A DNA stretch of 64,000 nucleotides from Mesorhizobium australicum WSM2073 (GTDB taxonomy: Bacteria; Pseudomonadota; Alphaproteobacteria; Rhizobiales; Rhizobiaceae), in assembly GCF_000230995.2 (NCBI RefSeq), contig NC_019973.1, forward strand, positions 5,532,001 to 5,596,000. The letters run 5' to 3'. Of the stretch, positions 2,739 to 28,586 are shown in pieces. Below the pieces are notes generated by a model. It had not been told where the DNA came from. It made no database searches and was given only the letters and a program-made list of their open reading frames with translations. Each line of letters opens with the position of its first letter. Position 1 is the first letter of the stretch. The translations under genes were made by a program, and so were the position numbers.

Positions 2739-2763
2739 GGAACAAGTCAGCATGGATGACGTT
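2739..2763 (+). promoter_or_regulatory. EcfG-type promoter, GGAAC-N16-CGTT (exact)
   Basis: GGAAC at 2739-2743 and CGTT at 2760-2763 are separated by exactly 16 bases. This is the established consensus for EcfG sigma factors. A transcript starting near 2770 would exclude the upstream in-frame ATGs at 2737 and 2752 and leave ATG 2788 as the start of the NepR-like gene. Confidence 0.8.
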
Positions 2764-2787
2764 GAACCCGATATCCATGGTGGTTCA

Positions 2788-2979
2788 ATGACAAAACGCT
2801 CTGCTGGCCTGAAAGTCCTGGCGCCAATGGTGCCGGGGGCGCCTGAATTAATCGAAGGTCTCGATGGGCCCATCCCGGATCGCATGCTGGTGCTTGCGAA
2901 ACGGTTGCAGGCGGCGCTGGATGACAGGAAAGTGGAAGTGCCTTCTTTGCATCCTAAACTCCGTTCGAAGAAAGGATGA
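2788..2979 (+). CDS. NepR-like anti-sigma factor
   Basis: A 63-residue protein. Its central segment GPIPDRMLVLAKRLQAAL matches the NepR hallmark (EPIPDRFLDLLxxL), the helix that in PhyR-NepR-EcfG systems binds either the sigma factor or phosphorylated PhyR. The start is set by the EcfG-type promoter just upstream; two earlier in-frame ATGs would overlap the promoter. The stop lies 4 bases before the start of the receiver gene, so the two are almost certainly co-transcribed. The N-terminus is basic, with an unusual Met/Pro-rich stretch. Assignment rests on one motif and context; binding to a sigma factor is inferred. Confidence 0.75.
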   Translation: MTKRSAGLKVLAPMVPGAPELIEGLDGPIPDRMLVLAKRLQAALDDRKVEVPSLHPKLRSKKG

Positions 2980-2983
2980 CGAC

Positions 2984-3580
2984 GTGCGCGATCTGCGGGG
3001 GTTGCATCTTCTGATTGTCGAAGACGAATGGTCGATGGCTGGAGATCTTGCGAGGTTTTTCAGCAACATGGGTGCTATCATTCTCGGGCCCGCCGCTACC
3101 GTCGAGCAGGCGTCTGAACATACCGATCAAGCCGAAGCTGCAATCCTGGACGTCAATCTCAACGGCCGACGTGTGTTTCCGATCGCCGACAAGTTGATGC
3201 GCCGCGGTATCCCCTTCGTATTCTTCAGCGGCGACAACGACATCGCCATCCCCGAGCATCTCCGTTACGCCAGCAATTTGCGGAAATCCTCGGGCAGCAA
3301 GGCTGTGTTCAATGCCCTTTTTCCGCCGCAGGCATCCGAACAAGCGGACATCTCCGTGCCCTCCCCGCCAGACGACGTTTTCACCCTTTTGCCCAAACTG
3401 CGCCTCGCGGCGCGTCTTCTGCTGGGAGACGTCAACGCATCGGACCGGCTGGTCGAGAGGACACTCGAGCAAGCGATCCGGGACGTCGACCACCGGCAGC
3501 TTGGCCAGTCCACCGAAAACTGGCTCAACGACGTCATGCGAGAAGTGGCCAAAGCCCGCGGCGCAAAGCTGATGCATTGA
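2984..3580 (+). CDS. Receiver protein with C-terminal sigma-region-2-like domain (inverted PhyR-like)
   Basis: 198 residues from a GTG start with AAGGA seven bases upstream. Residues 1-115 form a response-regulator receiver: acidic pair Glu13/Asp14, phosphoacceptor Asp56 in ILDVNLNG, Ser82 in FFSGD and probably Lys101. Residues 125-195 (LLPKLRLAARLLLGDVNASD and onward to WLNDVMREV) line up with region 2 of ECF sigma factors, including the EcfG-like protein at 24302-24865. PhyR has a sigma-like domain followed by a receiver; here the order is reversed and region 4 is missing. It probably takes part in partner switching with the adjacent NepR-like protein and kinase. A simple orphan receiver is the alternative. 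Confidence 0.75.
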   Translation: MRDLRGLHLLIVEDEWSMAGDLARFFSNMGAIILGPAATVEQASEHTDQAEAAILDVNLNGRRVFPIADKLMRRGIPFVFFSGDNDIAIPEHLRYASNLRKSSGSKAVFNALFPPQASEQADISVPSPPDDVFTLLPKLRLAARLLLGDVNASDRLVERTLEQAIRDVDHRQLGQSTENWLNDVMREVAKARGAKLMH

Positions 3581-3716
3581 ATTCTCCTGGGCCGAGGCCA
3601 AGACGCTTCGCTGGATCACCTTTCTGGATCAGCGCCCGAAGCAATAGGGCAGTCGATTGTTCCAGCGACTTTCGGGATTTTCTGGGGCCCGCTGCATCGG
3701 CCGCCAGCCAGCCCTC

Positions 3717-3989
3717 TCAACCCTTGCGATCGCGCTCGACGAATTTATTAAAACGGCTGGATTTTCCGTCGCTGGTCTTGGCCTGATAAAGGAAGGCGAG
3801 ATCGTTCTCGTCGAATATCCGGAAGAACTCGTCCCAATCGATGGGGTCGAATGCTTCCTCGGGCTCGCCAAAGTCGATCCGCAGGATGCCGCCCTCGCCC
3901 TTGGTGCGGACCACCGCCGGCCGGCCCTGCCGCTCCTCGGCCCATTTGCGAATTTCGTCGTGATTGGTGGTTGTCTGGGACTGCGACAT
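3717..3989 (-). CDS. Small conserved acidic protein of unknown function
   Basis: 90 residues, ATG preceded by AGGGAG at a good distance. It carries the features of a small soluble family widespread in rhizobia and actinobacteria and often mis-annotated as a glucan-branching enzyme: [50 protein letters not shown] and a Ser/Arg/Phe-rich tail. It has no signal peptide or membrane segment. A GGAAC-N16-TGTT promoter at 4050-4074 suggests stress induction. It is divergent from the first glycoconjugate operon and convergent with the receiver gene. The function is unknown. Confidence 0.85.
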
Positions 3990-4049
3990 TGAAATCTCCC
4001 TTGATCATCGGCTTCGCTTTTCGGCGTCACGGCGGCTGTCGAGCGCCCT

Positions 4050-4074
4050 AACAGCATACCGGCGGCAATGTTCC
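4050..4074 (-). promoter_or_regulatory. EcfG-type promoter, GGAAC-N16-TGTT
   Basis: On the minus strand GGAAC (4074-4070) and TGTT (4053-4050) are 16 bases apart. The site lies about 60 bases upstream of the ATG at 3989. One base differs from the exact -10 consensus. Confidence 0.6.
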
Positions 4075-4145
4075 CGCATCGCGGGCCGATGGTGTTGCGC
4101 TTGCTTTCAGGCGAAGCCCGCGAAGGGAACTTTGTTGAAGCACAG

Positions 4146-4170
4146 GGAACAAACCTTTTGCCGAAAAGTT
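4146..4170 (+). promoter_or_regulatory. EcfG-type promoter of glycoconjugate operon 1, GGAAC-N16-AGTT
   Basis: GGAAC (4146-4150) and AGTT (4167-4170) with 16-base spacing, ending 35 bases before the GTG start of the first gene of a nine-gene operon. A second GGAAC about 20 bases upstream has no matching -10 element. Confidence 0.6.
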
Positions 4171-4204: not shown

Positions 4205-5311
4205 GTGAAACGCATATTGGTTACAGGAGGCTGCGGCTTCATCGGCCGCCACGTCACACAAGAACTCATCGCTCAGGATTATTCAGTTCGCATTCTCGAC
4301 GCCCTGCTGGAGCAGGTGCATGCGGGTGAAGCGGTCGCGCTTCCCGCAGGTGCCGAACTGATCAAGGGCGACATTCGCGACCGCGAAGCCGTTGCCGAGG
4401 CGCTGGAAGGCGTCGACGCCGTCATTCATCTGGCATCGGAAGTCGGCGTCGGACAATCAATGTACGAGATCGCGCGCTATGTCGGCACCAACGATCTCGG
4501 CACGGCAACATTGCTTGAAGCGCTGATCAAGCATCCGGTCGAACGGATCGTCGTCGCCTCCTCGATGAGCGTCTATGGCGAGGGCCTCTATGCCACGCCC
4601 GACGGCCGGCGCATCGACAATGCAAGGCGCAAGTCAAGCGACATCAAAAGCGGACAGTGGAATCCGCTGTCGCCGGAAGGTGAACCCCTTTCGCCGCTGC
4701 CGACGGATGAAGAAAAGCCGGTCGACCTCGCCTCGATCTACGCGCTGACGAAATACGCCCAGGAACGCGCCGTGCTGATCTTTGGCGAAGCGTACAACAT
4801 CGATGCGGTCGCGTTGCGCCTGTTCAATGTCTTCGGTGCCGGCCAGGCGCTATCAAATCCCTATACCGGCGTGCTGGCCAATTTCGCTTCACGTCTCGCC
4901 AATGGCCAACGGCCGATGATCTTCGAGGATGGCGAACAGAAGCGCGATTTCGTTCATGTGCATGACGTCGCCCGCGCCTTTCGCCTTGCGCTGCAGCAAC
5001 GTCAGGCAAAGGGCCACGTCATCAACATCGGCAGCGGCCGCGCCTATGCGATCAGCGAAGTCGCGCGATTGCTGGCCGAAGCCATGGGAACCCCGAACCG
5101 TTCGCCCGAGCTGCTCGGCAAGGCGCGCTCCGGCGACATTCGCAACTGCTTCGCCGATATCTCCAAGGCTCGTGAGCTGCTCGGTTTCGAACCCGCCCTG
5201 CAATTGGAGAACTCTCTCGGGGATTTCGTTTCCTGGGTGCGCAACACGGCCGCCGTCGATCGCGGCGCCGAAATGAAGCGCGAACTCGAAGAGCGCGGGT
5301 TGGTGTCATGA
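4205..5311 (+). CDS. NAD-dependent epimerase/dehydratase (extended SDR)
   Basis: 368 residues from a GTG start with GAGGAG upstream. Rossmann motif GGCGFIGRH at about residues 8-16, Ser/Tyr/Lys active site with SSMSVYGEG and YALTKYAQE. It belongs to the UDP-glucose/UDP-glucuronate 4-epimerase-like group of sugar-nucleotide SDRs; the exact sugar cannot be read from sequence. First gene of the operon; its TGA overlaps the next start by four bases. Expected to act in the cytoplasm to supply a sugar nucleotide to the downstream glycosyltransferases. Confidence 0.85.
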   Translation: MKRILVTGGCGFIGRHVTQELIAQDYSVRILDALLEQVHAGEAVALPAGAELIKGDIRDREAVAEALEGVDAVIHLASEVGVGQSMYEIARYVGTNDLGTATLLEALIKHPVERIVVASSMSVYGEGLYATPDGRRIDNARRKSSDIKSGQWNPLSPEGEPLSPLPTDEEKPVDLASIYALTKYAQERAVLIFGEAYNIDAVALRLFNVFGAGQALSNPYTGVLANFASRLANGQRPMIFEDGEQKRDFVHVHDVARAFRLALQQRQAKGHVINIGSGRAYAISEVARLLAEAMGTPNRSPELLGKARSGDIRNCFADISKARELLGFEPALQLENSLGDFVSWVRNTAAVDRGAEMKRELEERGLVS

Positions 5312-6387
5312 GCCCGGGCGCACGCAACCGACGCGAAGCGCCGGTCGCCATCGTCGGCGGCAGCGGCTTCATAGGATCAAACCTGGCCGACAGCCTGTTG
5401 TCGGATGGCGAGCCAGTGCTGGTGGTCGACAATCTCAGCCGTCCCGGCGTCGAACAGAACCTGCAATGGCTCGCACAGAAACACGGTGGCCGCCTAACGG
5501 TCGAGACCATCGATGTGCGGGACGCCAATGCCCTGGCCCCGATTCTCATGAGATCCAAGGCGATTTTCCATCTGGCCGCGCAGACGGCCGTCACCACGAG
5601 CCTGGTCCGGCCGGACGAGGATTTCGACATCAATCTTCGCGGAACGTTCAACGTGCTGGAAGCGGCGCGGCTGAGCAGCGAGCGCATCCCGGTGATTTTC
5701 GCCAGCACCAACAAGGTTTACGGCAGCCTCCCCGACGTCGCGGTTCGCGCGGACGACGACCGCTACATACCTTGCGATAGCGCGATCCAGGCCGGCGGGA
5801 TCGACGAGGCTCGCGGCCTCGATTTCTGCACACCCTATGGCTGCTCCAAGGGCGCGGCGGACCAATATGTGCTCGACTACGCCAAATCCTACGGCATGCC
5901 CACGGCGGTGCTGCGGATGAGCTGCATCTACGGACCGCGCCAGTTTGGAACCGAGGACCAGGGTTGGGTAGCGCACTTCCTGCTCAGCGCCCTGACGGGA
6001 CGGGAAATCACCATCTACGGCGATGGCAGGCAGGTGCGTGACATCCTGCACGTTTCCGACGCGGTCGCCGCCTACAGGGCCGTGCTGGACGGCATCGAGA
6101 TCACCAAGGGCCAGGCATTCAATCTTGGCGGCGGACCAGAAAATGCGCTCAGCCTGCGTATGCTGTTGAGTGAGATCCGCAGCCTGACCGGTCGCGAGCT
6201 CTCGGTCCGCCACGATGGGGAACGGACCGGCGACCAGCCCTTCTTCGTCGCCGATACCCGCAAGATCGAAACCGCGCTTGGCTGGAAGGCGCAGGTTGCG
6301 TGGCGCGAGGGCATTCGCGATCTCGCCGACTGGCTGCAGCGCCACCGGCTTGAGCCCCGCCCCGAAGCCGTGAGGTACGTCGCATGA
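5308..6387 (+). CDS. NAD-dependent sugar-nucleotide epimerase (CDP-paratose 2-epimerase-like)
   Basis: 359 residues. N-terminal GGSGFIGSN dinucleotide motif (about 17-25) and active-site segments FASTNKVYG and TPYGCSKGAADQYVLDYA (Tyr-x3-Lys). The NKVYG block and the long insertion before TPYG resemble CDP-paratose/CDP-tyvelose 2-epimerases rather than UDP-galactose epimerases, though the substrate remains uncertain. It overlaps both neighbours by four bases, so translation is probably coupled. Confidence 0.82.
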   Translation: MSPGARNRREAPVAIVGGSGFIGSNLADSLLSDGEPVLVVDNLSRPGVEQNLQWLAQKHGGRLTVETIDVRDANALAPILMRSKAIFHLAAQTAVTTSLVRPDEDFDINLRGTFNVLEAARLSSERIPVIFASTNKVYGSLPDVAVRADDDRYIPCDSAIQAGGIDEARGLDFCTPYGCSKGAADQYVLDYAKSYGMPTAVLRMSCIYGPRQFGTEDQGWVAHFLLSALTGREITIYGDGRQVRDILHVSDAVAAYRAVLDGIEITKGQAFNLGGGPENALSLRMLLSEIRSLTGRELSVRHDGERTGDQPFFVADTRKIETALGWKAQVAWREGIRDLADWLQRHRLEPRPEAVRYVA

Positions 6388-7676
6388 GAATAGCCCTGGT
6401 CAACCCGTCCTGGACATATGACGACAGCATCTATTTCGGCTGCCGCCAACCGCATCTGCCCCTGGAACTCGGCTATTCGAAAGCCCTGCTCGAGGCGGCC
6501 GGCCATGAGGTGCTGATGCTGGACGGACAATTGCAGAAGCTCGATAATTCCGGGCTCTGCAAACGCGTGGTTGATTTCGCGCCGGCAATGACGGTTGTCA
6601 GCACCGCGCCGACCTATCTGTTCTGGCGCTGCGCACCGCCGGAATTGCGGGTGCCGGCCGATTTCCTCAATCGCCTGGCCGGGCGTGGCGGACGCACGGT
6701 CGCGGTCGGGCCACATGGTTCGGCGACGCCGGCGCCGACCTTGCGCAAGCTGGGCGTCGACATTGTCGTGCGCGGCGAATGCGAGGAAGTCGTCGCGGAA
6801 CTTGCACGACGCGACGATTGGAGCGCGGTACCCTCAACCGCCTATCTGCGGGACTCCAAGCTGGTGTCGAACGGCGACGTCCATTCCAGTTCGTTTGTCG
6901 ATCACCCGCCGCTGGAATGGCCATCCGACTGGATTGCCGCCCATTCGCATCACCATCACCGGTTCGATGACCAACAGCTTGGATTCGGCGCCGAGGTCGA
7001 GGCGTCGCGCGGCTGTCCCTACAATTGCAGCTTCTGCGCCAAGATCGATTTCCGCGATGCCTATCGCCGCCGCAACCACGAAGCGGTGGTGACTGAAATC
7101 GATAGGCTGATCGCCCAGGGTGTCGGCTACATCTACTTCATCGACGAAATCTTCCTGCCCCAAAAAGCGTTGCTGGAGGCGTTGGTCGGCCGCGATGTGA
7201 AATTCGGCGTCCAGACCCGCATCGATCTGTGGAAACCCGAGCTGCTGGAACTGCTGGGCGCGGCAGGCTGCGTGTCCATCGAAGCCGGCCTCGAAAGCCT
7301 GACGGTGGAAGGGCGGGCCATGCTGGCGAAGCGCTGCCGGCTGGGCACCGAGGAGCTTGCCGCGCTGCTGGTCAAGGCCAGACGCCACGTTCCCTTCGTC
7401 CAGGCCAATCTGATCGGCGTCGTCGAGGACGATCCTGCCCTTGTCGATCACTGGCGCACCCACCTGATCGACAATGGCGTGTGGGCCAATGAACCCGTGC
7501 CGCTTTATCCATATCCGAGTTCGCCCAGCTATCGCGAGCTTTGGGGCGAACCCGACGACCTCGCCTGGGAGCGCGCCCATGATCATTACCTCGCATCGTT
7601 CCAGAAGTTCAGCGACATCCAGGAAAAGCGCCCGCGCCCGCTGGCGGAACTGGAGGCGGCATGTTGCGGACACTGA
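6384..7676 (+). CDS. B12-binding-type radical SAM protein
   Basis: 430 residues. N-terminal cobalamin-binding-like Rossmann region (about 1-150; ALVNPSW, LELGYSKALLEAAGHEV) followed by a radical SAM core with the iron-sulfur motif CPYNCSFC near residue 214. The B12 domain lacks an obvious DxHxxG lower-ligand motif. Such enzymes perform radical methylation, ring or carbon-skeleton chemistry. Lying between epimerases and glycosyltransferases, it probably modifies a sugar, cyclitol or lipid part of the product. I recall a TIGRFAMs label 'rhizo-twelve system' for a similar protein in a conserved rhizobial gene set, but cannot verify it here. Confidence 0.88.
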   Translation: MRIALVNPSWTYDDSIYFGCRQPHLPLELGYSKALLEAAGHEVLMLDGQLQKLDNSGLCKRVVDFAPAMTVVSTAPTYLFWRCAPPELRVPADFLNRLAGRGGRTVAVGPHGSATPAPTLRKLGVDIVVRGECEEVVAELARRDDWSAVPSTAYLRDSKLVSNGDVHSSSFVDHPPLEWPSDWIAAHSHHHHRFDDQQLGFGAEVEASRGCPYNCSFCAKIDFRDAYRRRNHEAVVTEIDRLIAQGVGYIYFIDEIFLPQKALLEALVGRDVKFGVQTRIDLWKPELLELLGAAGCVSIEAGLESLTVEGRAMLAKRCRLGTEELAALLVKARRHVPFVQANLIGVVEDDPALVDHWRTHLIDNGVWANEPVPLYPYPSSPSYRELWGEPDDLAWERAHDHYLASFQKFSDIQEKRPRPLAELEAACCGH

Positions 7677-8761
7677 CGCCACGCAAGCGCCGCATCCTGA
7701 TGACCGTCGACGCCATGGGCGGAGTATGGCGCTATGCGCTTGATCTCGGCCGGGAACTGGTCAATGGCGGCGACAGCGTTGTGTTCGCCGGGCTGGGGCC
7801 GCAACCATCCAGGCAACAGGCCGAAGAGGCACGGTCCTTCGCGACGCTCATCTGGTTGAATACGCCACTGGACTGGATGACCCGCAGCGCCGGCGACCTC
7901 GACCGTCTGCCGCTGGAATTGCGTGCGCCGATACGCGACTACGCCATCGACCTTGTCCATCTCAACGGACCGACGCAGGCCGTGGGGTTGGACGCGCCTT
8001 GCCCAGTCATAGTCGTCTCGCATTCATGCGTGACGACATGGTTCCATTCCGTCAAGGGACAGGCGTTGGATAGCGCATGGAGCTGGCAGAAAGAGCGCAA
8101 CAGGCGCGGCTTCGACAGGGCCGACGCAGTCATCGCCCCAAGCCGCAGCCATGCCGAGATGCTCGAGACCTGCTATGGCCCGATCGCACGCCTTCACGTC
8201 GTCGGAAATGCCGCACGCCCCGTCCCGACAGCAGAAACCCGCCAGCCGCTCGTCTTCGCCGCCGCCCGCTGGTGGGACGAGGGAAAGAATGTGGTGGTGG
8301 TCGACCAGGCCGCCTCGTTGACGCAATGGCCTCTCTTTACAGCCGGTTCGCTTCACGGCCCGAACGGCGAGCGCGCCACCGTCAACCATGCCGTTCCTCT
8401 CGGAGCACTGCCGCATGGCGAGGTGCGCTCCCTGATGGCCCGCGCCGGTATTTTCGTGTCTCCGTCGCTCTACGAACCGTTCGGTCTGGCGGCTCTGGAA
8501 GCGGCCATGTCGGCAACGCCCCTGGTGCTCTCGGACATCCCGACCTATCGCGAGTTATGGGACGGGGCCGCGATGTTCTTTGACGGTCGCGACCCGCATG
8601 ATCTTGCAGCCTGCATCAATCGTCTTTCCAGCGATGCGGGGCATAGGCGGGAGCTCGGCCACGCCGCCCTCCGCCGAAGCCGCAGGTTCACTCTGGCGAG
8701 ACAGGCAGCGGCCATGCGCGATGTCTACGAAAAGGCGGCGCTGGCCGTGGCGGAGCGCTGA
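7661..8761 (+). CDS. GT4-type glycosyltransferase
   Basis: 366 residues; start overlaps the previous gene by 16 bases. GT-B fold features: N-terminal DAMGGVWRYALDLGREL (acceptor side) and C-terminal donor-site motif SLYEPFGLAALEAAMS, the E-x7-E signature of retaining group-1 transferases, followed by PTYRELW. No signal peptide or membrane span, so it is a cytoplasmic or peripheral enzyme. Donor and acceptor are unknown; candidates are products of the epimerase/decarboxylase genes in the same operon. Confidence 0.87.
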   Translation: MLRTLTPRKRRILMTVDAMGGVWRYALDLGRELVNGGDSVVFAGLGPQPSRQQAEEARSFATLIWLNTPLDWMTRSAGDLDRLPLELRAPIRDYAIDLVHLNGPTQAVGLDAPCPVIVVSHSCVTTWFHSVKGQALDSAWSWQKERNRRGFDRADAVIAPSRSHAEMLETCYGPIARLHVVGNAARPVPTAETRQPLVFAAARWWDEGKNVVVVDQAASLTQWPLFTAGSLHGPNGERATVNHAVPLGALPHGEVRSLMARAGIFVSPSLYEPFGLAALEAAMSATPLVLSDIPTYRELWDGAAMFFDGRDPHDLAACINRLSSDAGHRRELGHAALRRSRRFTLARQAAAMRDVYEKAALAVAER

Positions 8762-8763
8762 TC

Positions 8764-9894
8764 ATGCGCTTCTTGTTCTACACCCACTCGCTCGTCTCCG
8801 ACTGGAACCACGGCAATGCCCATTTCCTTCGCGGCGTCATGCGCGAACTGGTGGCGCGCCGGCATCAGGCCATCGCTCTGGAGCCGGCGGACGGCTGGAG
8901 CCGATCGAACCTGCTGGCCGAGAGGGGATCCTTCGCGATCGAACGTTTTCGCAAGGATTTCCCCGAATTGATGCCGGTGACCTACGATGCCGGGTTCGAC
9001 CATGAAGCCTGGATCGCCGAGGCCGACGTGGTGATCGTCCACGAATGGACCGACCCGGAGCTTGTCGCTCGCATCGGCCGTGCCCGGGCCGATGGCGGCA
9101 AATTCACCTTGCTGTTTCACGACACCCATCACCGCGCCGTGTCGGCCACCGAGGCAATCTCGGCGCTCCGCCTGGAACATTATGATGGCGTTCTCGCCTT
9201 TGGCGAAGCGCTGCGCGAGAGCTATCTGCGCGCCGGCTGGGGCAAGCGCGTCTTCACCTGGCATGAAGCGGCGGACGATCGGCTGTTCAAACCGCACCCA
9301 GAAATCCACGCGACGTCCGACCTGGTCTGGATCGGAAACTGGGGCGATGACGAGCGGACGGCCGAAATCCAGGAATTCCTGATCGAACCAGTGCGCGATC
9401 TCGGTCTTCAGGCCACTGTTCACGGGGTCCGCTATCCCGAGCCGGCACTTGCCGATCTGGCAGCCGCCGGTCTGCGCTACGAAGGGTGGATCGCCAATGC
9501 CGACGTGCCGAAGGTGTTCGCCGCGCATCGTGTCACCGTGCACATCCCGCGGCGTCCTTATCGTGAAGGCTTGCCCGGAATTCCGACGATCCGCATGTTC
9601 GAGGCACTTGCCTGCGGCATCCCGCTGATTTCAGCGCCTTGGTCCGACGTCGAGCAGCTTTTCAGGCCCGGCATCGACTTCCTGTTTGCCGAGGATGGAT
9701 CGCAAATGCGGCAACATCTCCAGGCGGTGTTGGCCGATCCCGATTTTGCGGCCTCCCTGGTGACCTCGGGTCTTGAGACCATCCGCTCGCGGCACACCTG
9801 TCGTCACCGCGTCGACGAGTTGTTCGACGTGCTCTGGCAATGCACGACCCTGCACACCGCCGAGCTGACCGCCGCAAAGGAAGCCGCAGCATGA
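8764..9894 (+). CDS. CgeB-type glycosyltransferase, copy 1
   Basis: 376 residues, two bases after the previous stop. N-terminus MRFLFYTHSLVSDWNHGNAH resembles the three other CgeB-type proteins here (short hydrophobic strand, Ser-x-W-N/G-x-G, RG). The C-terminal Glyco_trans_1_2-like donor site reads RMFEALACGIPLISAPW. The family is named after Bacillus CgeB of the spore surface, and most members have no proven substrate. Overlaps the next gene by four bases. Confidence 0.8.
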   Translation: MRFLFYTHSLVSDWNHGNAHFLRGVMRELVARRHQAIALEPADGWSRSNLLAERGSFAIERFRKDFPELMPVTYDAGFDHEAWIAEADVVIVHEWTDPELVARIGRARADGGKFTLLFHDTHHRAVSATEAISALRLEHYDGVLAFGEALRESYLRAGWGKRVFTWHEAADDRLFKPHPEIHATSDLVWIGNWGDDERTAEIQEFLIEPVRDLGLQATVHGVRYPEPALADLAAAGLRYEGWIANADVPKVFAAHRVTVHIPRRPYREGLPGIPTIRMFEALACGIPLISAPWSDVEQLFRPGIDFLFAEDGSQMRQHLQAVLADPDFAASLVTSGLETIRSRHTCRHRVDELFDVLWQCTTLHTAELTAAKEAAA

Positions 9895-12085: not shown

Positions 12086-12108
12086 CTGGCAGACAGGAGA
12101 AAATCGCG

Positions 12109-13193: not shown

Positions 13194-13218
13194 GGAACAT
13201 CCAGGCAAGCTTTTGGTT
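13194..13218 (+). promoter_or_regulatory. EcfG-type promoter, GGAAC-N16-GGTT
   Basis: GGAAC (13194-13198) and GGTT (13215-13218) with 16-base spacing, immediately before an AGGAGG ribosome site and the ATG at 13236. The predicted leader is about ten bases. Confidence 0.65.
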
Positions 13219-13235: not shown

Positions 13236-13436
13236 ATGGAGGACCTCCTCATGCACCCCAAGCGATCTCGGACCGATATCGACAAGATGGCGGAACGAGA
13301 GACGGCTGCGTATTTGCGGCGAGCCTCAATCACCTATCTGGAGTGCTGTGTCAGCCTGATGATGACGCATCTGCAGCGGGAGGAGGTGGCCAGTATTCTC
13401 GAGCAGGAAGCAGACATGCTGCGCAGGCTGGATTGA
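13236..13436 (+). CDS. Small stress-type protein of unknown function
   Basis: 66 residues; ATG with AGGAGG seven bases upstream, which decides this start over an earlier in-frame one at 13155. The protein is charged and helical, with KMAERETAAYLRRASITYLE and a second helix LQREEVASILEQEADMLRRL. No signal or membrane segment. It has its own EcfG-type promoter and ends six bases from the convergent gene. I do not recognise the family. Confidence 0.8.
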   Translation: MEDLLMHPKRSRTDIDKMAERETAAYLRRASITYLECCVSLMMTHLQREEVASILEQEADMLRRLD

Positions 13437-18971: not shown

Positions 18972-18973
18972 CC

Positions 18974-20660: not shown

Positions 20661-20667
20661 GGCTCTC

Positions 20668-20793
20668 ATGCGACCCGGTCCGCGATCATCGGAGGCACTG
20701 ACCGAAGTCAAGGCTCTCGGCCCCTTCGAGATCGGCACCAGGTCGTGCGCAACCGCCTGCGCCCATCCCGCACCATGGCTCGGCCGGCCATGA
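20668..20793 (+). CDS. Possible 41-residue leader or small protein
   Basis: A short open frame, ATG seven bases after the previous stop, whose TGA overlaps the ATG of the following glycosyltransferase (ATGA). The product is MRPGPRSSEALTEVKALGPF followed by a Cys/Ala/Pro-rich tail. No good ribosome site. It may only serve translational coupling across the gap, or may be chance. Confidence 0.3.
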   Translation: MRPGPRSSEALTEVKALGPFEIGTRSCATACAHPAPWLGRP

Positions 20794-21854
20794 CGCTCAC
20801 CGTCCTCAACGTCGCCTATCCCCTCGCGCCTGTCGGACCGGATGCGGTCGGGGGTGCCGAACAGGTCCTGTCGATGCTCGATCGGGCACTGGTCGGCGCG
20901 GGTCATCGGTCTATCGTCGTCGGCTGCCGGGGCTCCAGCGCGAGCGGCACGCTTGTGGAAATTCCGGCGGAAGGCGGCGTACTCGACGAGGTGGCGAAGA
21001 GCCGCGCGCAGCAGGCTCATCGAACCGCGATCGCCGCTGCCCGCGCCAGGTGGCCGATCAATGTGGTTCATCTGCATGGCATCGATTTCGATGCCTATCT
21101 GCCCGACGATGGCCCGACCTTGGTGACCCTTCACCTGCCGCTGGACTGGTATCCGGCCGGGGCCTTGCAGCCGACGCGCGACGACCTGTGGCTTCATGCA
21201 GTCTCGGCCGCCCAGCAGAAAACCGCGCCACCCGGCGCCAAACTGGCCCCGCCAATTCCGAATGGAGTAGACATAGAGGCGCTCAGCCTGCTGCAGCCGA
21301 AGCGCGACTTCGCACTGGTCCTGAGCCGCATCTGCCCGGAAAAGGGCATCCACCTGGCGCTGGACGCGGCCAAGCAGGCAGGTGTACCGCTGGTTGTCGG
21401 CGGTAAGGTCTATCCCTATGAAACGCACACGCGTTACTTTCACGACGAGGTCCAACCTCGCCTCGATGGCCGCCGCCGCTTTCTTGGTCCGCTCGGTTTC
21501 ACCGCCAAGCGGCGCTTTCTCAACGCAGCACGCTGTCTGGTCATCCCGAGCCTTGCCGCCGAGACCAGCTCCCTTGTCGCCATGGAGGCGCTGGCCTGCG
21601 GCACACCGGTGATCGCCTTTCCGAATGGTGCGCTTCCGGACGTGATCGAGCACGGCAAGACCGGTTTTCTCGTCAATACGATCGACGAGATGGCACAAGC
21701 CATCGTTGCGGCGTCAAGCCTGGACGCCGAGACATGCCGCGCCGAGGCGCGACGGCGGTTCTCGCTGGAGCGAATGATCTCGTCTTACATGGATGCCTAT
21801 CAGGCGCTGGCGCGACTTGGCACCGATGCCGGGCGCCTCGCCGTCACGCCGTGA
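20790..21854 (+). CDS. GT4-type glycosyltransferase
   Basis: 354 residues from ATG 20790; in-frame alternatives at 20745 and 20775 add residues outside the family. N-terminal strand TVLNVAYPLAPVGPDAVGGAEQ with the Gly-rich acceptor loop, HLHGIDFDAYLP, NGVDIEAL, LSRICPEKGIHLALDAAKQAG and donor site AAETSSLVAMEALACGTPVIAF (E-x7-E-like). Retaining GT-B enzyme, soluble. It is distinct from the other GT4 at 7661-8761. Confidence 0.85.
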   Translation: MTLTVLNVAYPLAPVGPDAVGGAEQVLSMLDRALVGAGHRSIVVGCRGSSASGTLVEIPAEGGVLDEVAKSRAQQAHRTAIAAARARWPINVVHLHGIDFDAYLPDDGPTLVTLHLPLDWYPAGALQPTRDDLWLHAVSAAQQKTAPPGAKLAPPIPNGVDIEALSLLQPKRDFALVLSRICPEKGIHLALDAAKQAGVPLVVGGKVYPYETHTRYFHDEVQPRLDGRRRFLGPLGFTAKRRFLNAARCLVIPSLAAETSSLVAMEALACGTPVIAFPNGALPDVIEHGKTGFLVNTIDEMAQAIVAASSLDAETCRAEARRRFSLERMISSYMDAYQALARLGTDAGRLAVTP

Positions 21855-22843
21855 GCGAGCCTGTGTTGCGCGGTCAGATCATCGATGATCCGGCGCAATT
21901 CGATGCGCTTGCGACGGATTGGTGGGGACTGTGGGAGCAGAGTTCCTCGGCGACGCCGTTTCAATCTCCTGCGTGGCTGGTGCCATGGTGGCGCACATTC
22001 GGGCCCGGCGACCTGGCGACGGTCGCGGTCTGGCGCGGAAGCGACCTGATAGGGCTAGCGCCGCTTTATCTAGAGCACCGAACCGCCGGCTCGAAACTGC
22101 TTCCGGTCGGCATTTCGCTCAGCGACTATCTGGATATCCTGTGTGTTCCCGGCACCGAAGACCAGGTCGCGGCCATTGTTGCCGAAAAGATCCTCTCGGT
22201 CGGCTGGTCGCAGTGGATCCTGTCGGATTTGCCTGAAGGCGGCGCCGGTCTTGCGATTGCGCATCCCGATCTGAAGGCGGGGCGGCCAGCCGCTCATGGT
22301 GCTTGCCCCGTGCTCGCCATCGCCGGAGACGATACCCTTGCAGGCTGTGTACCCTCCCGGCGCCGGCGCCAGTTGCGACGGGCGCGGCAGGCCGCATCCA
22401 GACGCGGCCGGATCGCGTTGTCGTCGGCACGGGGCGATCCCCAAACCTTCCTCGATCAGTTGATCCGCCTGCACGACGCGCGCTGGGCCGGACACGGAGG
22501 TGGCGTGTTGGCCGACGCGGCTGCAGAGGAATTCCACAGGCGCTCACTTCCCTTGCTCGACGCTCGCGGCCTGGTCCGATGCTGGCTTTTGGCAATCGAT
22601 GGCAGGACGGTCGGGGCCTATTACGGCTTCCACCATCGCGGTCGTGCCTATGCCTATCTCGGGGGCTTCGACCCCGCCTATGCCGAAGAGAGCCCAGGGG
22701 CGATCCTGATCGGCCACGCGATCGCGGAATCGATCCGCGAAGGTGCGCGCGAGTTCGATTTCCTGCGCGGCCAGGAAGCCTACAAATATGGCTGGGGCGC
22801 CATCGACAGGTGGACGATGCGCAGGGTCTGGACGCGGAGTTGA
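21851..22843 (+). CDS. CelD/BcsL-type acyltransferase (GNAT/FemAB fold)
   Basis: 330 residues; GTG start overlapping the previous TGA by four bases. N-terminal TPFQSPAWLVPWWRTFGPGD and VAVWRGSDLIGLAPLYLE, and C-terminal AYAYLGGFDPAYAEESPGAIL and FDFLRGQEAYKYGWG are typical of the double-GNAT 'acetyltransferase involved in cellulose biosynthesis' group found in many polysaccharide clusters. It probably adds an acetyl or aminoacyl group to the glycan. No membrane segment. Confidence 0.85.
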   Translation: MSEPVLRGQIIDDPAQFDALATDWWGLWEQSSSATPFQSPAWLVPWWRTFGPGDLATVAVWRGSDLIGLAPLYLEHRTAGSKLLPVGISLSDYLDILCVPGTEDQVAAIVAEKILSVGWSQWILSDLPEGGAGLAIAHPDLKAGRPAAHGACPVLAIAGDDTLAGCVPSRRRRQLRRARQAASRRGRIALSSARGDPQTFLDQLIRLHDARWAGHGGGVLADAAAEEFHRRSLPLLDARGLVRCWLLAIDGRTVGAYYGFHHRGRAYAYLGGFDPAYAEESPGAILIGHAIAESIREGAREFDFLRGQEAYKYGWGAIDRWTMRRVWTRS

Positions 22844-22847
22844 TACC

Positions 22848-23894
22848 ATGCCTGCAACCAAGCCAAAATCCGCTCCGCGCCGCACTACGATCAGATCGGC
22901 TGTTGAAGACTGCATGGCGGATGGTGTCTGCGCCGAAGCAGTCGTCGCCAGGCTGGCGCTTCACCTGCAGACGGGGATCAGGGCGGCGGACCTGGCAAAG
23001 ATCGTGCTGGATATCGTTCCGTCGAATGCGCGAGACGCGGAAAGGCTGCAAGAGGTAGCCGGGTTGCTTCGCCGCAAGCCAGATATCTTTGCCACATTGC
23101 GAGCGACGGGAGCGGCCGTTCGGCACACACGCGACGACGGGGAGACCGGTGCCGCCGTCGTCACGCGGCTGGCCTCGAGCTTCGATGCGGCGGCAGCGAT
23201 TTCGGAGACAGCAAGTGTCCAGCTCGCATCCCTAGGGGATGAGGAAAGGCTCTCGGCCACGACCGACGAAGTCGTCGCCTGGCTCAAGCAGCAGGACTTC
23301 TCCGGAACCCGCCGGGATATTCTGGACATTGGTTGTGGCATCGGCCGTTTCGAGCATGCGCTTTCCAACTCCTTCAACCGCATGATCGGCATCGATATAT
23401 CCTCGCGGATGATCTCCATCGCCTCCGAACGGTGCGCCGCGCTGGGCAATGTCGAGTTGCGGCAAACCTCCGGTCTCGATTTGAGCGAATTCGACGACGG
23501 CAGTTTCGATTGCGTGCTGGCGGTCGACAGCTTTCCTTATCTGGTTCTGGCGGGCATGGCCGAGGGGCATTTCGATGAGATCGCACGCGTTCTGAAACGG
23601 CCTGGCTGGCTCGCCTTGCTGAACTATTCCTATCGCGGATCGCTTTCGTGGGACCGCGCTGATGTCGGCCGCCTGGCGGAAGCTCACCAAATGCGGGTCG
23701 TCATCAATGGCGAGAAGCCGTTTCGGTCATGGGATGGCGAGGCTTTCCTACTTGCTCGAGGCGGCGGAACATTACTGCGCGCCGCCAGTTCGGACGTCGA
23801 ACCAGAGGCGCCGAAGATCGGCACCGACCCGAAGGAGGAAATCATGGCACCCGGCGCCAAGAAACATCGGCCGCGTGAAGCAGCACGGCGATGA
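22848..23894 (+). CDS. Class I SAM-dependent methyltransferase with N-terminal extension
   Basis: 348 residues. Residues 1-130 are a helical region without recognised motifs (AEAVVARLALHLQTGIRAADLA). The methyltransferase core follows: ILDIGCGIGRFEHALS (motif I), MIGIDISSRMISIASER (motif II), FDDGSFDCVLAVDSFPYLV and EIARVLKRPGWLALLNYSYRG. The last 16 residues are encoded across a strong ribosome site and an ATG at 23844, suggesting that a further small gene begins inside its 3' end. Acceptor unknown. Confidence 0.85.
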   Translation: MPATKPKSAPRRTTIRSAVEDCMADGVCAEAVVARLALHLQTGIRAADLAKIVLDIVPSNARDAERLQEVAGLLRRKPDIFATLRATGAAVRHTRDDGETGAAVVTRLASSFDAAAAISETASVQLASLGDEERLSATTDEVVAWLKQQDFSGTRRDILDIGCGIGRFEHALSNSFNRMIGIDISSRMISIASERCAALGNVELRQTSGLDLSEFDDGSFDCVLAVDSFPYLVLAGMAEGHFDEIARVLKRPGWLALLNYSYRGSLSWDRADVGRLAEAHQMRVVINGEKPFRSWDGEAFLLARGGGTLLRAASSDVEPEAPKIGTDPKEEIMAPGAKKHRPREAARR

Positions 23895-24124: not shown

Positions 24125-24301
24125 ATGTCTCATTCGAGCGACGATACCGCGGACCCGCAATTCGGTCTGGCCATGGATCAGGAGATCACTTCTCTCCTGG
24201 ACGCCATAGAGCAGGAAAAAATTCCAGACCGGCTAACCAGGCTGGCCATGGAGTTGCAAAACGCGCTGGTTGAGAAACGTCGACGTGACGTGCAGAACTG
24301 A
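24125..24301 (+). CDS. NepR-like anti-sigma factor, second copy
   Basis: 58 residues, too short for most gene finders. Segment EKIPDRLTRLAMELQNALVE matches the NepR core helix (PIPDRxxxLxxxLxxAL), and the N-terminus is acidic (SHSSDDTADP). The 5' side has only a weak purine-rich ribosome site, and I saw no GGAAC promoter before it. Its stop abuts the stop of the convergent EcfG-like sigma gene (24302), so the antagonist and probable target are tail to tail instead of in the usual nepR-ecfG operon. Confidence 0.75.
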   Translation: MSHSSDDTADPQFGLAMDQEITSLLDAIEQEKIPDRLTRLAMELQNALVEKRRRDVQN

Positions 24302-24865
24302 TTATCTGCGGCTGTCACCCTCCATATCGAGTTGACCATCCGATAGATGATTTCGTCTTTCGATTAGTGTCTGCAACGAACTCTCCCCAAGCAACTCGAG
24401 AATATTGGCGCGGGCACGGTTCAGCCGACTTTTTACCGTCCCCACCGCGCAGCCGCATATCTCGGCCGTTTCTTCATAACTCACCCCCAGAACGCCAATC
24501 AGCATCAGAACCTCGCGTTGGTGTTCCGGTAACTTTTGTATGGCGGCGTGGACTTCCTTGCTTTGAACGCTCCATTCCTGGGTGGCTTCCGAAATCGGTC
24601 GGGACGATGCGCAGTCGAGCAGGCCTGGCGCTTCCCGGGCAGCGATCTTGACCCGGGTGTAGTACGTGTTGCGCATGATGGTGAAGAGCCACGACTTCAT
24701 GCGTGTGCCGGGTTCGAACTTGTCGATGTTGGCGAGACCCTTGGTCAGTGTCTCCTGTACCAGATCGTCGGCATCGTCGGGGACGCGGCAGAAGGTGCGC
24801 GCGAAAGCCCGCATGGCGGGTATGAGCTCAACGATGGAAACTTCATTGGTTTCTTGGTCGGCCAA
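24302..24865 (-). CDS. EcfG-like ECF sigma factor
   Basis: 187 residues. Region 2: MRAFARTFCRVPDDADDLVQ, with GTRMKSWLFTIMRNTYYTR for -10 recognition. Region 4: LPEHQREVLMLIGVLGVSYE and GCAVGTVKSRLNRARANILE as helix-turn-helix. The start is placed at TTG 24865 because GGAGG lies seven bases upstream; an upstream in-frame TTG at 24886 is the alternative. Predicted to read GGAAC-N16-CGTT promoters, like those around it. A near-match to that promoter upstream (24933-24957) would allow autoregulation. Genes in these genomes often have several EcfG paralogues. Confidence 0.9.
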   Translation of the reverse strand: MADQETNEVSIVELIPAMRAFARTFCRVPDDADDLVQETLTKGLANIDKFEPGTRMKSWLFTIMRNTYYTRVKIAAREAPGLLDCASSRPISEATQEWSVQSKEVHAAIQKLPEHQREVLMLIGVLGVSYEETAEICGCAVGTVKSRLNRARANILELLGESSLQTLIERRNHLSDGQLDMEGDSRR

Positions 24866-24932
24866 AATGTAGCCTCCGGATGACAATGGTCCAGCTCCCA
24901 GAAGAAGAGTGTATGAACGCAGCCCCTGCTAA

Positions 24933-24957
24933 ATGCATGGAAGTTTGGTTCGTTCCT
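24933..24957 (-). promoter_or_regulatory. Weak EcfG-type promoter, GGAAC-N16-CATT
   Basis: GGAAC (24957-24953) and CATT (24936-24933) are 16 bases apart, upstream of the sigma gene. The central G of the -10 element is replaced, so this is the poorest of the set. Confidence 0.35.
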
Positions 24958-25081: not shown

Positions 25082-25106
25082 GGAACAAAGCCGCGCACCG
25101 GCAGTT
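25082..25106 (+). promoter_or_regulatory. EcfG-type promoter of catalase gene, GGAAC-N16-AGTT
   Basis: GGAAC (25082-25086) and AGTT (25103-25106), 16-base spacing, about 50 bases before the catalase ATG. Catalases are classic general-stress targets. Confidence 0.6.
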
Positions 25107-25157: not shown

Positions 25158-27269
25158 ATGGCCAAATCCGCCCGTCGCTCCGCTCGCCAATCGGCAAGTG
25201 GTCAGGAACCGGATAGCGCGCGCGGAAACGGCGGGGAATTGCACCAGATCGCCGGGGGTGAGACGCCCACCCTGACCACGGCGCTCGGAACACCCGTCTC
25301 CGACGATCAAAACACATTGCGGATCGGCGAACGCGGACCAGCGCTGATCGAGGACTCTCATTTTCGCGAGAAGATTTTCCACTTCGACCACGAACGCATT
25401 CCCGAAAGGGTCGTCCATGCCCGGGGCTACGGCGCGCATGGTTACTTCGAGACCTACGAGTCTCTGGCCAAATACACACGTGCCGATATTTTCCAGAGGG
25501 CCGGCGAAAAGACACCGGCTTTCGTGCGCTTCTCGACGGTTGCCGGCAACAAAGGCTCGTTCGATCTCGCCCGCGACGTCCGCGGCTTCGCGGTCAAGCT
25601 CTACACCAGGGAAGGCAATTGGGATCTGGTCGGCAACAATATCCCGGTCTTCTTCATCCAGGACGCGATCAAGTTTCCCGATCTGATCCATGCCGCCAAA
25701 CAGGAGCCGGACCGGGCCTTTCCTCAAGCCCAGACCGCTCACGATAATTTCTGGGACTTCATCAGCCTGATGCCGGAATCGATGCACATGGTGATGTGGA
25801 TCATGTCGGATCGCGCGATCCCGCGCTCCTTCCGCTTCATGCAGGGCTTTGGCGTCCACACGTTCCGCCTGGTCAACGCGAAAGACGAATCCACCTTCGT
25901 CAAATTCATCTGGAAGCCAAAGCTCGGCATGCAATCGGTGGTCTGGAATGAGGCGGTCAAGATCAATGGCGCCGATCCAGACTTTCACCGTCGCGATCTG
26001 TGGGACGCCATCCAGTCCGGCAATTTCCCGGAATGGGAGTTGACGGTGCAATTGTTCGATCAGGCGTTTGCCGACAGCTTCGACTTCGACATTCTGGACG
26101 CAACCAAGATCATTCCTGAAGAGGTGCTCGAACCAATCCCGGTCGGGCGGCTGGTGCTTGACCGGATGCCGGATAATTTCTTCGCGGAGACCGAGCAGGT
26201 TGCCTTCATGACGCAGAATGTGCCGCCCGGAATTGACTTCTCCAACGATCCGCTTCTGCAGGGCCGCAACTTCTCCTATCTCGATACCCAGTTGAAACGG
26301 CTGGGCAGCCCGAACTTTACCCATCTCCCGATCAATGCGCCGAAGTGCCCGTTCGCCCATTTCCAACAGGACGGACACATGGCTATGCGCAATCCTGTCG
26401 GTCGCGCCAACTATGAACCGAATTCATGGGGGCTGGGACCGCGCGAGGATCCGCAACGCGGCTTTCGTTCCTTCGCCGATGCCGAAGACGGGCAGAAGGT
26501 GCGTCTGCGCGCGGAAAGCTTCGCCGATCACTACAGCCAGGCCCGGCAATTCTTCAACAGCCAGACACCGCCGGAGCAGCGCCACATCGCCATGGCGCTG
26601 ACCTTCGAATTGAGCAAGGTCCAGGCACCGGCGATCCGCGAACGCATGGTTTCGCATCTGCTGAACATCGACGAAACCCTGGCGACCACCGTCGCCGACA
26701 AGCTCGGCATTCGGAATATGCCCGACCCTGCGGAGGCAGCCGTTCCGACGCGCGACGACCTGCCGCCTTCGCCGGCGCTCAGCATCATCGAGAACGGGCC
26801 TGACAGTTTCAAGGGCCGCAAGGTCGGCGTCTTGCTCAGCAATGGAACCGACCCCGCGCTGTTCGAAGAGCTCCGTTCCGCCATCGAAACGGAGGGCGCG
26901 GTGATGGAGGTGATCGCGCCCAAGGTGGGCGGCGTCGATGCGGCCGACGGCACCCACATCGAGGCCAGACACATGATCGACGGCGGCCCGTCTGTGTTGT
27001 TCGACGCCGTGGTGCTGCTCCTCTCGGAGGAGGGTGCCGAGATGCTGCTCGACGAGGCGGCCGCGAAGGACTTCGTGTCAGATGCGTTCGCGCATTGCAA
27101 ATTCATCGGCTTCACAGCGGCGGCCCAACCTCTCCTGGCCAAGGCGGGCGTGGCGCCCGATGCCGATGAGGGGCTGATCGGGCTTGATACCGCAGGTTCC
27201 GTGAAGACGTTTATAGAGGCTTGCCGCAAACTGCGGCTGTGGGCACGGGAAACCGCTGTCAAGCTTTGA
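25158..27269 (+). CDS. katE: Large-subunit catalase (HPII type)
   Basis: 703 residues; ATG after a GAGGA ribosome site. Residues about 75-560 are the heme catalase core: active-site His in [15 protein letters not shown], Asn in [12 protein letters not shown], heme-ligand Tyr in [14 protein letters not shown], and the long wrapping arm. Residues about 565-700 form the flavodoxin/GATase-like C-terminal domain typical of HPII enzymes ([20 protein letters not shown]). Degrades hydrogen peroxide, probably in stationary phase or dryness. Monocistronic, next to the sigma locus. Confidence 0.96.
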
Positions 27270-27330: not shown

Positions 27331-27337
27331 CTAGGCC

Positions 27338-27832
27338 CTATGGTTGGCGGGCTTCTCTGGCGGCCTGTTCTCGCTGCTGTTTCAGGACCTCGTCGGTCCC
27401 GACCAGCTTCTTTGCTCCGCCTGGAATTGCCGTGGACACCACCGCGGGTGGGTCGCTTGCCGGAAAAGAGTCCTCCAACCCGGCCTGCAGTTGATCCTCG
27501 AGCGTCTGCGGTTCTTCGGAGCGGCCAGGCGTCCTGCGCGTATCCATCTTCTCCAGCGACTGTTTCTTCTTTGGTGACTCATTGGCTTCGCGGATCAAGG
27601 CATAAAGCTGCTCGATCGCGAATTCCTTCATCGTTTCGAAATCGGGCCGATCGTCCTTCGTCGCCTCTATCTGATCGACCATGGCCTTCTCGAACCGCCC
27701 AAGGCTTTCACCGCCGCAGGCATGGGAAAGGCGCAGCAATGCCTCGTGCAGCATCATCGGGGTGAAGTAAGCCGACGCTTCAAGCCTGAGTTGCCGCAGA
27801 CGATCCGGAGTGGCAGCCTGGAATTTTGACAT
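27338..27832 (-). CDS. Stress-type hypothetical protein with FPASDPP motif
   Basis: 164 residues. N-terminal half helical (LRLEASAYFTPMMLHEALLR; FETMKEFAIEQLYALIREAN), then a linker, then LEDQLQAGLEDSFPASDPPA. The FPASDPPA element recurs in many small rhizobial proteins of unknown function, often stress-associated. An exact GGAAC-N16-CGTT promoter stands upstream. Soluble; function unknown. Confidence 0.85.
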   Translation of the reverse strand: MSKFQAATPDRLRQLRLEASAYFTPMMLHEALLRLSHACGGESLGRFEKAMVDQIEATKDDRPDFETMKEFAIEQLYALIREANESPKKKQSLEKMDTRRTPGRSEEPQTLEDQLQAGLEDSFPASDPPAVVSTAIPGGAKKLVGTDEVLKQQREQAAREARQP

Positions 27833-27847
27833 GGACGGTCCTTTCTC

Positions 27848-28060
27848 TCACGAGCGTGTCAACGACAGTTGATCGCCGATGTTCCACCACGCCTGAACAT
27901 ACTTCATGTCCAGCGACCTACCGGAACCAGCTTGCCGGCCTCCGGAACCGTCCATGATCTTGCGTGACTGGTCATGATGAGCCGGTTCTCCCGCACGGCG
28001 ACGGCGGGCGTTTTCCAGCATGTCACGATTTCTTGTGATGAAGGAATGCAGGTCCGGCAC
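27848..28060 (-). CDS. Possible 70-residue hypothetical protein
   Basis: Open frame from GTG 28060 (ATG 28021 is an in-frame alternative), with a hydrophilic Arg-rich first half (NRDMLENARRRRAGEPAHHD) and an aromatic C-terminus KYVQAWWNIGDQLSL. A GGAAC-N16-GGTT site ends only ten bases before the GTG, so transcription from it would give an almost leaderless mRNA for GTG or a 40-base leader for ATG 28021. No family recognised. Confidence 0.45.
   Translation of the reverse strand: MPDLHSFITRNRDMLENARRRRAGEPAHHDQSRKIMDGSGGRQAGSGRSLDMKYVQAWWNIGDQLSLTRS
27861..27885 (-). promoter_or_regulatory. EcfG-type promoter, GGAAC-N16-CGTT (exact)
   Basis: GGAAC (27885-27881) and CGTT (27864-27861), 16-base spacing, 29 bases before the ATG at 27832. 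It lies within the 3' end of the small upstream open frame. Confidence 0.78.
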
Positions 28061-28069
28061 GCGCCTGCC

Positions 28070-28094
28070 AACCCGATCGAGCGGACGGCGTTCC
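28070..28094 (-). promoter_or_regulatory. EcfG-type promoter, GGAAC-N16-GGTT
   Basis: GGAAC (28094-28090) and GGTT (28073-28070), 16-base spacing, upstream of the small open frame 27848-28060. It is the second of two such sites in tandem within 235 bases. Confidence 0.5.
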
Positions 28095-28195
28095 TGACGC
28101 CATCGCGGCTCAGCGGCGCCCCTGCAGCAAGAACACCGCCCGATCAGTCGCCCCAGGGAGAAGAACGACTTCGGGCGGCGCTCCGAGCCACTGGC

Positions 28196-28525
28196 TCATT
28201 TGTTGCAGTTCTGCATGTTCGACGTCGTGTTGCCGCTGGCGGTGTTGTTGTCGATGTCGTTGCCCGCGGCATCCTTGCAACGGTCGGTCATGCCGTTCGA
28301 CTTGGTTGTCGAGTTTGTCGAATTTGTCGTGCTTGGGTCGGCGGGTGTGGTCGTCGCACCGGAGCCTGTGCCGACGCCAGTGCCGGTCGTGGTCCCATTG
28401 CCGCCACTGGTGGCGCCGGACGTCGAGCCTGAACCATTGCCGGATCCGGTGCCGTTCGACTGTGCCATTGCCGACGTGGCCAGAGCGACCGTAAGCACGG
28501 TGGCGGAGAGAAGTTTGGTGATCAT
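28196..28525 (-). CDS. Secreted Gly/Ser/Thr/Asn-rich low-complexity protein
   Basis: 109 residues. Signal peptide MITKLLSATVLTVALATSAMA with cleavage after AMA, then about 60 residues of Gly/Ser/Thr/Asn repeats (GNGSGSTSG, GTTTGTGVGTGSG) and a C-terminal part with two Cys (DRCKDA, MQNCNK) that could pair in the periplasm. A good ribosome site (AAAGGAG) precedes the ATG. Preceded by an EcfG-type promoter. Probably a small periplasmic or surface protein made under stress; function unknown. Confidence 0.8.
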   Translation of the reverse strand: MITKLLSATVLTVALATSAMAQSNGTGSGNGSGSTSGATSGGNGTTTGTGVGTGSGATTTPADPSTTNSTNSTTKSNGMTDRCKDAAGNDIDNNTASGNTTSNMQNCNK

Positions 28526-28561
28526 TGGAGCATCTCCTTTGGTTGTGTACTGCTTCCACCA

Positions 28562-28586
28562 AACCTGTCTTTCCCGGATATGTTCC
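28562..28586 (-). promoter_or_regulatory. EcfG-type promoter, GGAAC-N16-GGTT
   Basis: GGAAC (28586-28582) and GGTT (28565-28562), 16-base spacing, 37 bases before the ATG of the secreted low-complexity protein. Confidence 0.6.

Follow-up and report, generated by a model that had tools for sequence, protein, structure and literature searches.

We analysed a window of 64,000 bases (positions 5532001-5596000) from the 6.2 Mb, single-contig genome of Mesorhizobium australicum WSM2073; proteins that match closely also come from Mesorhizobium. The window carries ecfG2, which encodes an accessory EcfG-type sigma factor, REC-sigma2, which encodes a response regulator resembling an inverted half of PhyR, and a dense series of sites in which GGAAC and GTT are separated by a fixed distance. 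These sites display two separate promoter-like signatures: class I, GGAAC-N16-CGTT, and class II, GGAACAW-N15-GTTNGR (W is A or T, R is G or A). Class II sites are far more frequent in Mesorhizobium genomes that encode EcfG2 than in those that lack it. Comparative genomics makes it probable, in our view, that the general stress response of this strain has two tiers: the canonical factor EcfG1 would act on CGTT promoters and on a CATT promoter before ecfG2, and EcfG2 would in turn drive effector genes through class II. The canonical phyR, nepR and ecfG1 genes are located outside the window, at 1.5087-1.5105 Mb of the same genome.

A sequence-only reading of this region had described nine GGAAC-N16-NGTT sites as a single set of EcfG-type promoters with one fixed spacing. 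All nine were found in the window, including those with CGTT at 2739+ and 27861-, along with two further sites at 23766+ (within the region that this reading had covered) and 40845-. These 11 sites in 64 kb compare with a mean of 1.39 among 100 dinucleotide shuffles of the window searched on both strands, of which none reached 11 and the largest count was 4. The plain pattern was not enriched across the genome (296 matches vs 279 for the reversed pattern, our control for genome-wide counts). Meanwhile, the form extended by A[AT] after GGAAC (hereafter AW) was found 73 times vs 12 for its reversed control, and 10 of the 11 window sites carry this extension.

The fixed spacing was borne out at every scale. 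Within the window, ten copies of GGAACAW...GTT have N16, and no other spacing from 10 to 23 has more than one. A 124 kb segment surrounding the window yields 17 copies with N16 and no more than one for each spacing of 12-15 and 17-20, and a 456 kb block at 2.51-2.97 Mb yields 34 with N16 and no more than four for each of eight other spacings. As judged by a codon-usage gene caller made for this analysis, which missed some genes, 14 of the 17 sites have a called start at most 250 bases downstream, two are intragenic and one is neither; in the 456 kb block these figures are 23, one and ten. Control stretches totalling 335 kb held a single match at N16, which was intragenic, while 57 REC-sigma2 loci held 315 AW-GTT sites at N16, with counts of 1-11 for each of the ten other spacings examined. 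The AW-extended sites are also clustered, with 34 of the 73 at 2.51-2.96 Mb and 17 at 5.50-5.575 Mb, a segment that includes the window (51 of 73 together). The densest 60 kb held 16 such sites, and 2000 uniform placements never gave more than 9. Finally, we compared the window sites with stretches from ten congeners by pairwise alignment, in which seven gapped or shifted cases were re-read ungapped. All class I and class II sites except 28562 keep their elements and spacing in every alignable relative. Shuffles, fixed spacing, mostly upstream position, control stretches and conservation together lead us to reject a chance origin of the class I and class II sites.

The bases around GTT separate the two signatures. 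Class I comprises 2739+ and 27861-, which show the described EcfG promoter GGAAC-N16-CGTT. Class II comprises 4050-, 4146+, 13194+, 15288+, 23766+, 25082+ and 28562-, which share the -35 element and the spacing but not CGTT. Among 48 non-intragenic AW sites of this genome, the second base after GTT is G in 40 and the third is G or A in 40. The 241 distinct AW sites found near REC-sigma2 genes in other genomes leave the base preceding GTT free (0.05 bit), with G at the second base after GTT in 78% and at the third in 67%. At the 29 distinct CGTT sites without AW in these loci, G amounts to 17% and 21% at these positions, and A is found at the third in 69%. In the 20 kb holding the canonical locus, all seven sites have CGTT, two of them with AW. 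These differences rule out that the nine listed sites form one class; what stands of that description is a well-supported, fixed-spacing EcfG-type stress regulon. Two sites, 28070- and 40845-, belong to neither class. The former, one of the nine, lacks the A[AT] extension, has its next called start 237 bases away and is alignable in none of the ten relatives, while the latter is intragenic and lacks the downstream G. Both are probably chance matches. The class I pattern shows no genome-wide excess (98 vs 102 for the reversed control), so many of its matches must be due to chance.

The distribution of class II across genomes links it to EcfG2, whose presence was defined by a best E-value of at most 1e-45. 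Among 118 Mesorhizobium genomes (119 with our own), the 54 with EcfG2 held a median of 29 class II sites (10-65) and the 64 without it a median of 8 (2-24), an area under the curve (AUC) of 0.98. The medians of the reversed-pattern control were 4.5 and 4. Recurrent coding-looking matches, such as GGAACATGTATTCCGAGCACGGGTTGG, make up part of the class II count in the genomes lacking EcfG2. Class II density in a further 150 genomes of the family was 2.23 per Mb in the 34 that encode a protein of the EcfG2 subgroup and 1.04 in the remaining 116, with the control at 0.48 and 0.64 per Mb, respectively.

This association persisted when relatedness was taken into account. Parsimony and contrasts were computed for 81 of the 119 genomes (our own and the 80 for which the position of EcfG1 was among the matches listed), on a tree built from the phyR-nepR-ecfG1 region only, which may differ from the species tree. 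The EcfG2 label changes 17 times on this tree by parsimony. Independent contrasts were strong for class II (t 8.3, p 2e-12) and absent for the control (t 0.7, p 0.49), and in nine of nine independent pairs the genome with EcfG2 had the higher count. Linkage alone is insufficient to explain the association, because 28 of the 48 class II sites of our genome are found at 2.58-2.96 Mb, no closer than 2.6 Mb to ecfG2. Nor is class II a mark of the REC-sigma2 island only, which is ruled out by 13 genomes with EcfG2 and without REC-sigma2 that hold a median of 26 sites.

The sigma gene itself proved to be EcfG-type, as had been proposed. Its product matches the Pfam families sigma2, sigma4 and PhyR_sigma2, its sigma2 and sigma4 domains are nearest to those of alphaproteobacterial EcfG/RpoE proteins (ECF15), and its best PDB match (E 8e-33) is 5uxx_A, an RNA polymerase sigma factor whose structure includes NepR as chain 5uxx_B. 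The adjacency to nepR and phyR seen at the 1.509 Mb locus is missing here, where only a convergent nepR2-like open reading frame (ORF) is found nearby; the window ecfG2 would thus be a non-canonical EcfG member. Plasmid-borne genes resembling ecfG2, with 84-96% identity, were observed in M. loti, M. jarvisii, M. huakuii and strain B2-1-8. Our genome also encodes a divergent EcfG-like protein (2626197-2626772, minus strand), which displays 38% identity to EcfG2.

Upstream of ecfG2, a weaker CATT site had been placed at 24933. The site exists, one base away from that position, and represents a promoter type that is conserved upstream of ecfG2. Among 43 other ecfG2-like genes (score at least 150 bits), 22 are preceded by CATT (20 at N16 and two at N17), 11 by CGTT, two by another NGTT and eight by none of these. 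The background, C[AG]TT in 238 of 8600 random 160-base windows from the same loci, is a rate raised by true sites in short loci. The rpoE5 gene of Sinorhizobium meliloti has a mapped CATT promoter that depends on RpoE2, according to the portions of PMC6180224 and PMC3616915 used here. Identical promoter letters precede an EcfG2-like gene in another S. meliloti strain, which we call rpoE5 because its upstream letters equal those of the published promoter.

The second regulatory gene, REC-sigma2, is present in 44 of the 119 Mesorhizobium genomes, 42 of which also have EcfG2, and in 43 of the 57 loci the 350 bases upstream of it include a CGTT site. A search with the protein returned 453 proteins at E<=0.001 (120 listed). 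It matches Pfam PF22029 at residues 135-183 (27.1 bits, cut-off 27), and its receiver match in Pfam is weak (E 0.019). A profile of 55 relatives matched SdrG/PhyR receivers in the PDB over residues ~7-113 and sigma factors over residues 120-188. The AlphaFold model (mean pLDDT 72, pTM 0.51) displays a receiver, a loose linker and three helices; among the 50 structure matches listed SdrG came first, and most were receivers and response regulators. As in the anti-anti-sigma factor PhyR, a receiver and a PhyR-type sigma2 domain are combined in one protein. In PhyR, however, an N-terminal sigma2-sigma4-like part precedes the receiver, whereas here the receiver (7-113) precedes a sigma2-like part (~126-188) and no sigma4-like part is found. 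By architecture this protein is not a PhyR, although it may work like half of one.

Two NepR-like genes had been proposed in this region. NepR likeness is weakly supported for nepR2: two of 20 family members match Pfam NepR (PF18557; best E 0.0033), while in PDB searches the family reached NepR chains at E 0.39 and 0.57, below unrelated chains. The proposal for nepR1 found no profile support, as neither this ORF nor its family (0 of 15 members) matched NepR in Pfam or the PDB. A NepR search of our genome retrieved the canonical NepR only. Divergent from the nepR1/REC-sigma2 pair, at 1-2778 on the minus strand, is a gene for a CheB-CheR-PAS-HWE kinase protein, which had a tblastn match in 46 of the 57 REC-sigma2 loci, some of them partial or distant. 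We regard it as a candidate partner kinase.

We propose the following sequence of events. The canonical PhyR-NepR-EcfG1 switch at 1.509 Mb, presumed to operate in this strain, would set EcfG1 free. EcfG1 would then read GGAAC-N16-CGTT, including the promoter of nepR1-like/REC-sigma2, as well as the CATT variant before ecfG2. From the genome comparisons, we infer that class II would be read by EcfG2 rather than EcfG1, so that EcfG2 would activate the catalase gene and two operons of the window (polysaccharide and inositol), along with other operons near 2.6-2.95 Mb. More speculatively, EcfG2 might be restrained by the product of nepR2, its convergent neighbour, and the phosphorylated inverted half-PhyR might bind a NepR-like protein. 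We are more hesitant about a complete second switch in Mesorhizobium and relatives, in which EcfG2, with its own promoter code, a NepR-like partner and an inverted half-PhyR, would stand under the canonical switch by way of CGTT and CATT promoters and yield two insulated sigma regulons; this is possible but rather doubtful.

Several observations weigh against the two-tier proposal. Overexpression of RpoE5 in S. meliloti raised one gene only, SMb20091, in the portion of PMC6180224 used here, and the two EcfG paralogues of Sphingopyxis are described, in the part of PMC7083833 available, as sharing promoters whose -10 is flexible, with CATT and GGTT among its forms; by that example, EcfG1 could read class II. 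The EcfG2 of Rhizobium etli is no closer to the window EcfG2 than to EcfG1. In the genome counts, two of the nine independent pairs differ by a single site, EcfG2 presence is clustered on the tree (17 changes vs a mean of 26.3 for shuffled labels), six of the 64 genomes lacking EcfG2 hold 15-24 class II sites, and genomes with EcfG2 slightly exceed the others in class I density too (13.78 vs 12.60 per Mb, AUC 0.71). Moreover, the divergent EcfG-like gene noted above lies in the middle of the site cluster at 2.62 Mb.

Some of these points would fit a single regulon in which EcfG1 reads all sites, EcfG2 merely amplifies the response, and class II is a subset tuned by its -10 and start region. 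The -35 element and spacing common to both classes, the flexible -10 and shared recognition in Sphingopyxis, and an RpoE5 nearly without targets of its own all favour it. So do four sites fitting class II that we found in 45 kb of S. meliloti pSymB, three of which precede ORFs as judged by eye, since these might equally be RpoE2 targets. We nevertheless consider a single regulon unlikely, because congeners lacking EcfG2 have few class II sites although an EcfG1-level match is present in 62 of the 64, and because of the strong contrasts. It is less likely still that class II is read by a different factor from the same accessory islands, either an activator or the divergent EcfG-like protein near 2.6262 Mb, with EcfG2 as no more than a marker of these islands. 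There are two site clusters with an EcfG-like gene in each, and two of the six exceptional genomes, G073 and G254, have REC-sigma2 and hold 19 and 24 class II sites without EcfG2; against this, the 13 genomes with EcfG2 and without REC-sigma2 retain many sites. Chance matches in a GC-rich genome, to which the lack of genome-wide enrichment of the plain pattern might point, are hardly credible as a general explanation given the fixed spacing and conservation, and are plausible for 28070- and 40845- only. The two-tier response thus remains the reading that we prefer. Plasmid p42f of R. etli is in line with it, since the 9 kb next to ecfG2 contain three class II sites, each some 20-150 bases ahead of an annotated gene, and the preceding 50 kb contain one; this count left our confidence unchanged.

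The features of the window are collected in Table 1. In addition, the polysaccharide operon includes a B12-binding radical SAM protein (TIGR04295) at 6384-7676 on the plus strand. A 584-amino-acid (aa) ORF at 13446-15197 on the minus strand, antiparallel to the operon, displays by eye phosphoribosyltransferase-like and kinase-like parts and had no Pfam or NCBIfam match. Genes at 28700-39000 resemble a Flp/Tad pilus set, as judged by translations only. Rfam at gathering thresholds gave no match. Beyond the window, 17 of 20 scanned genes behind AW sites had a Pfam family, among them Mn catalase, cytochrome oxidase subunits, DUF892, SDRs, pyridine nucleotide-disulphide oxidoreductase and glycosyltransferases.

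Table 1 Predicted promoters and genes of the window (positions count from its first base; relatives are those of the ten congener stretches)
Feature	Position	Strand	Support
Class I promoter GGAAC-N16-CGTT before nepR1-like/REC-sigma2	2739..2763	+	9/9 alignable relatives of 10
nepR1-like small ORF, 63 aa, PIPDRMLVLAKRLQAAL	2788..2979	+	Translation, family alignment
REC-sigma2 response regulator, inverted half-PhyR	2984..3580	+	Pfam, PDB profile, AlphaFold model
Conserved 90-aa protein behind class II site	3717..3989	-	
Class II promoter GGAACAT...GTTAGG	4050..4074	-	7/7 alignable relatives
Class II promoter GGAACAA...GTTCGG of polysaccharide operon	4146..4170	+	10/10 relatives
Polysaccharide operon: epimerases, B12 radical SAM (TIGR04295), glycosyltransferases	4205..13155	+	
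Class II promoter	13194..13218	+	9/9 alignable relatives
Small ORF downstream of 13194 site	13236..13436	+	
Class II promoter of inositol operon	15288..15312	+	10/10 relatives; gaps in three vanish ungapped
Inositol operon: myo-inositol-1-phosphate synthase, phosphatase, nucleotidyl transferase, methyltransferases, glycosyltransferase, acetyltransferase	15357..23894	+	
Class II promoter within 3' end of preceding gene	23766..23790	+	9/9 alignable relatives
nepR2-like small ORF, convergent with ecfG2	24125..24301	+	
ecfG2, accessory EcfG-type sigma factor; alternative start possible at 24865	24302..24886	-	Pfam, PDB
GGAAC-N16-CATT promoter of ecfG2	24932..24956	-	6/6 alignable relatives
Class II promoter of catalase gene	25082..25106	+	5/5 alignable relatives
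Long catalase, KatE type	25158..27269	+	
Uncharacterised 164-aa protein behind class I site	27338..27832	-	
Class I promoter CGTTGAC	27861..27885	-	9/9 alignable relatives
Low-complexity 109-aa protein, by eye signal-peptide-like start	28196..28525	-	
Class II promoter	28562..28586	-	Alignable in 0/10 stretches; similar site GGAACATATCAGGAAAAGATTGGTTTG elsewhere in relative G205

A survey from 2013 reported that half of the completed alphaproteobacterial genomes have at least two copies of EcfG, an abundance for which, in the words of PMC3892343 at that time, no satisfactory explanation existed. A promoter signature that tracks a duplicate stress sigma factor across a genus could explain the purpose of the duplicate. 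By following one EcfG copy through 17 inferred changes, this signature makes the question of the paralogues directly testable, and it yields a list of predicted targets. Within the open-access literature searched, both class II and the inverted half-PhyR are apparently unreported.

The closest known systems share some features with ours and differ in others. The EcfG2 of R. etli (PMC3892343, of which part was available) is also an accessory EcfG encoded away from the phyR locus, with a partly separate regulon that includes the catalase gene katG, and class II sites lie close to its gene. It is plasmid-borne and displays only 46% identity to the window EcfG2; reportedly neither an anti-sigma gene nor one for a response regulator is found nearby, and its authors report detecting no motif for its regulon. 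RpoE5 of S. meliloti (55% identity over 135 aa to the window EcfG2) shares the CATT promoter under the canonical sigma factor and has an RsiA-like ORF opposite the next gene. Unlike what we propose for EcfG2, it showed one overexpression target only, and the portions of PMC6180224 and PMC3616915 used here describe no promoter class of its own. Sphingopyxis EcfG1 and EcfG2 share with our system a hierarchy of paralogues and a variable -10 including CATT, but have promoters in common, and no paralogue-specific class is described in the available part of PMC7083833. Methylobacterium extorquens has several EcfG proteins and extra NepR-like proteins, two of these with EcfG-type promoters, and its -10 is given as C/GGTT. 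It differs in that, in the part of PMC4814048 used here, its ecfG genes have no EcfG-type promoter and the paralogues are said to recognise similar promoters. With the alphaproteobacterial general stress response (PhyR-NepR-EcfG) at large, our system shares the sigma family, the -35 element, the spacing and the usual kinds of targets. The canonical locus is present in the same genome, and what comes in addition is class II, which is common near the accessory sigma gene and in genomes that carry this gene.

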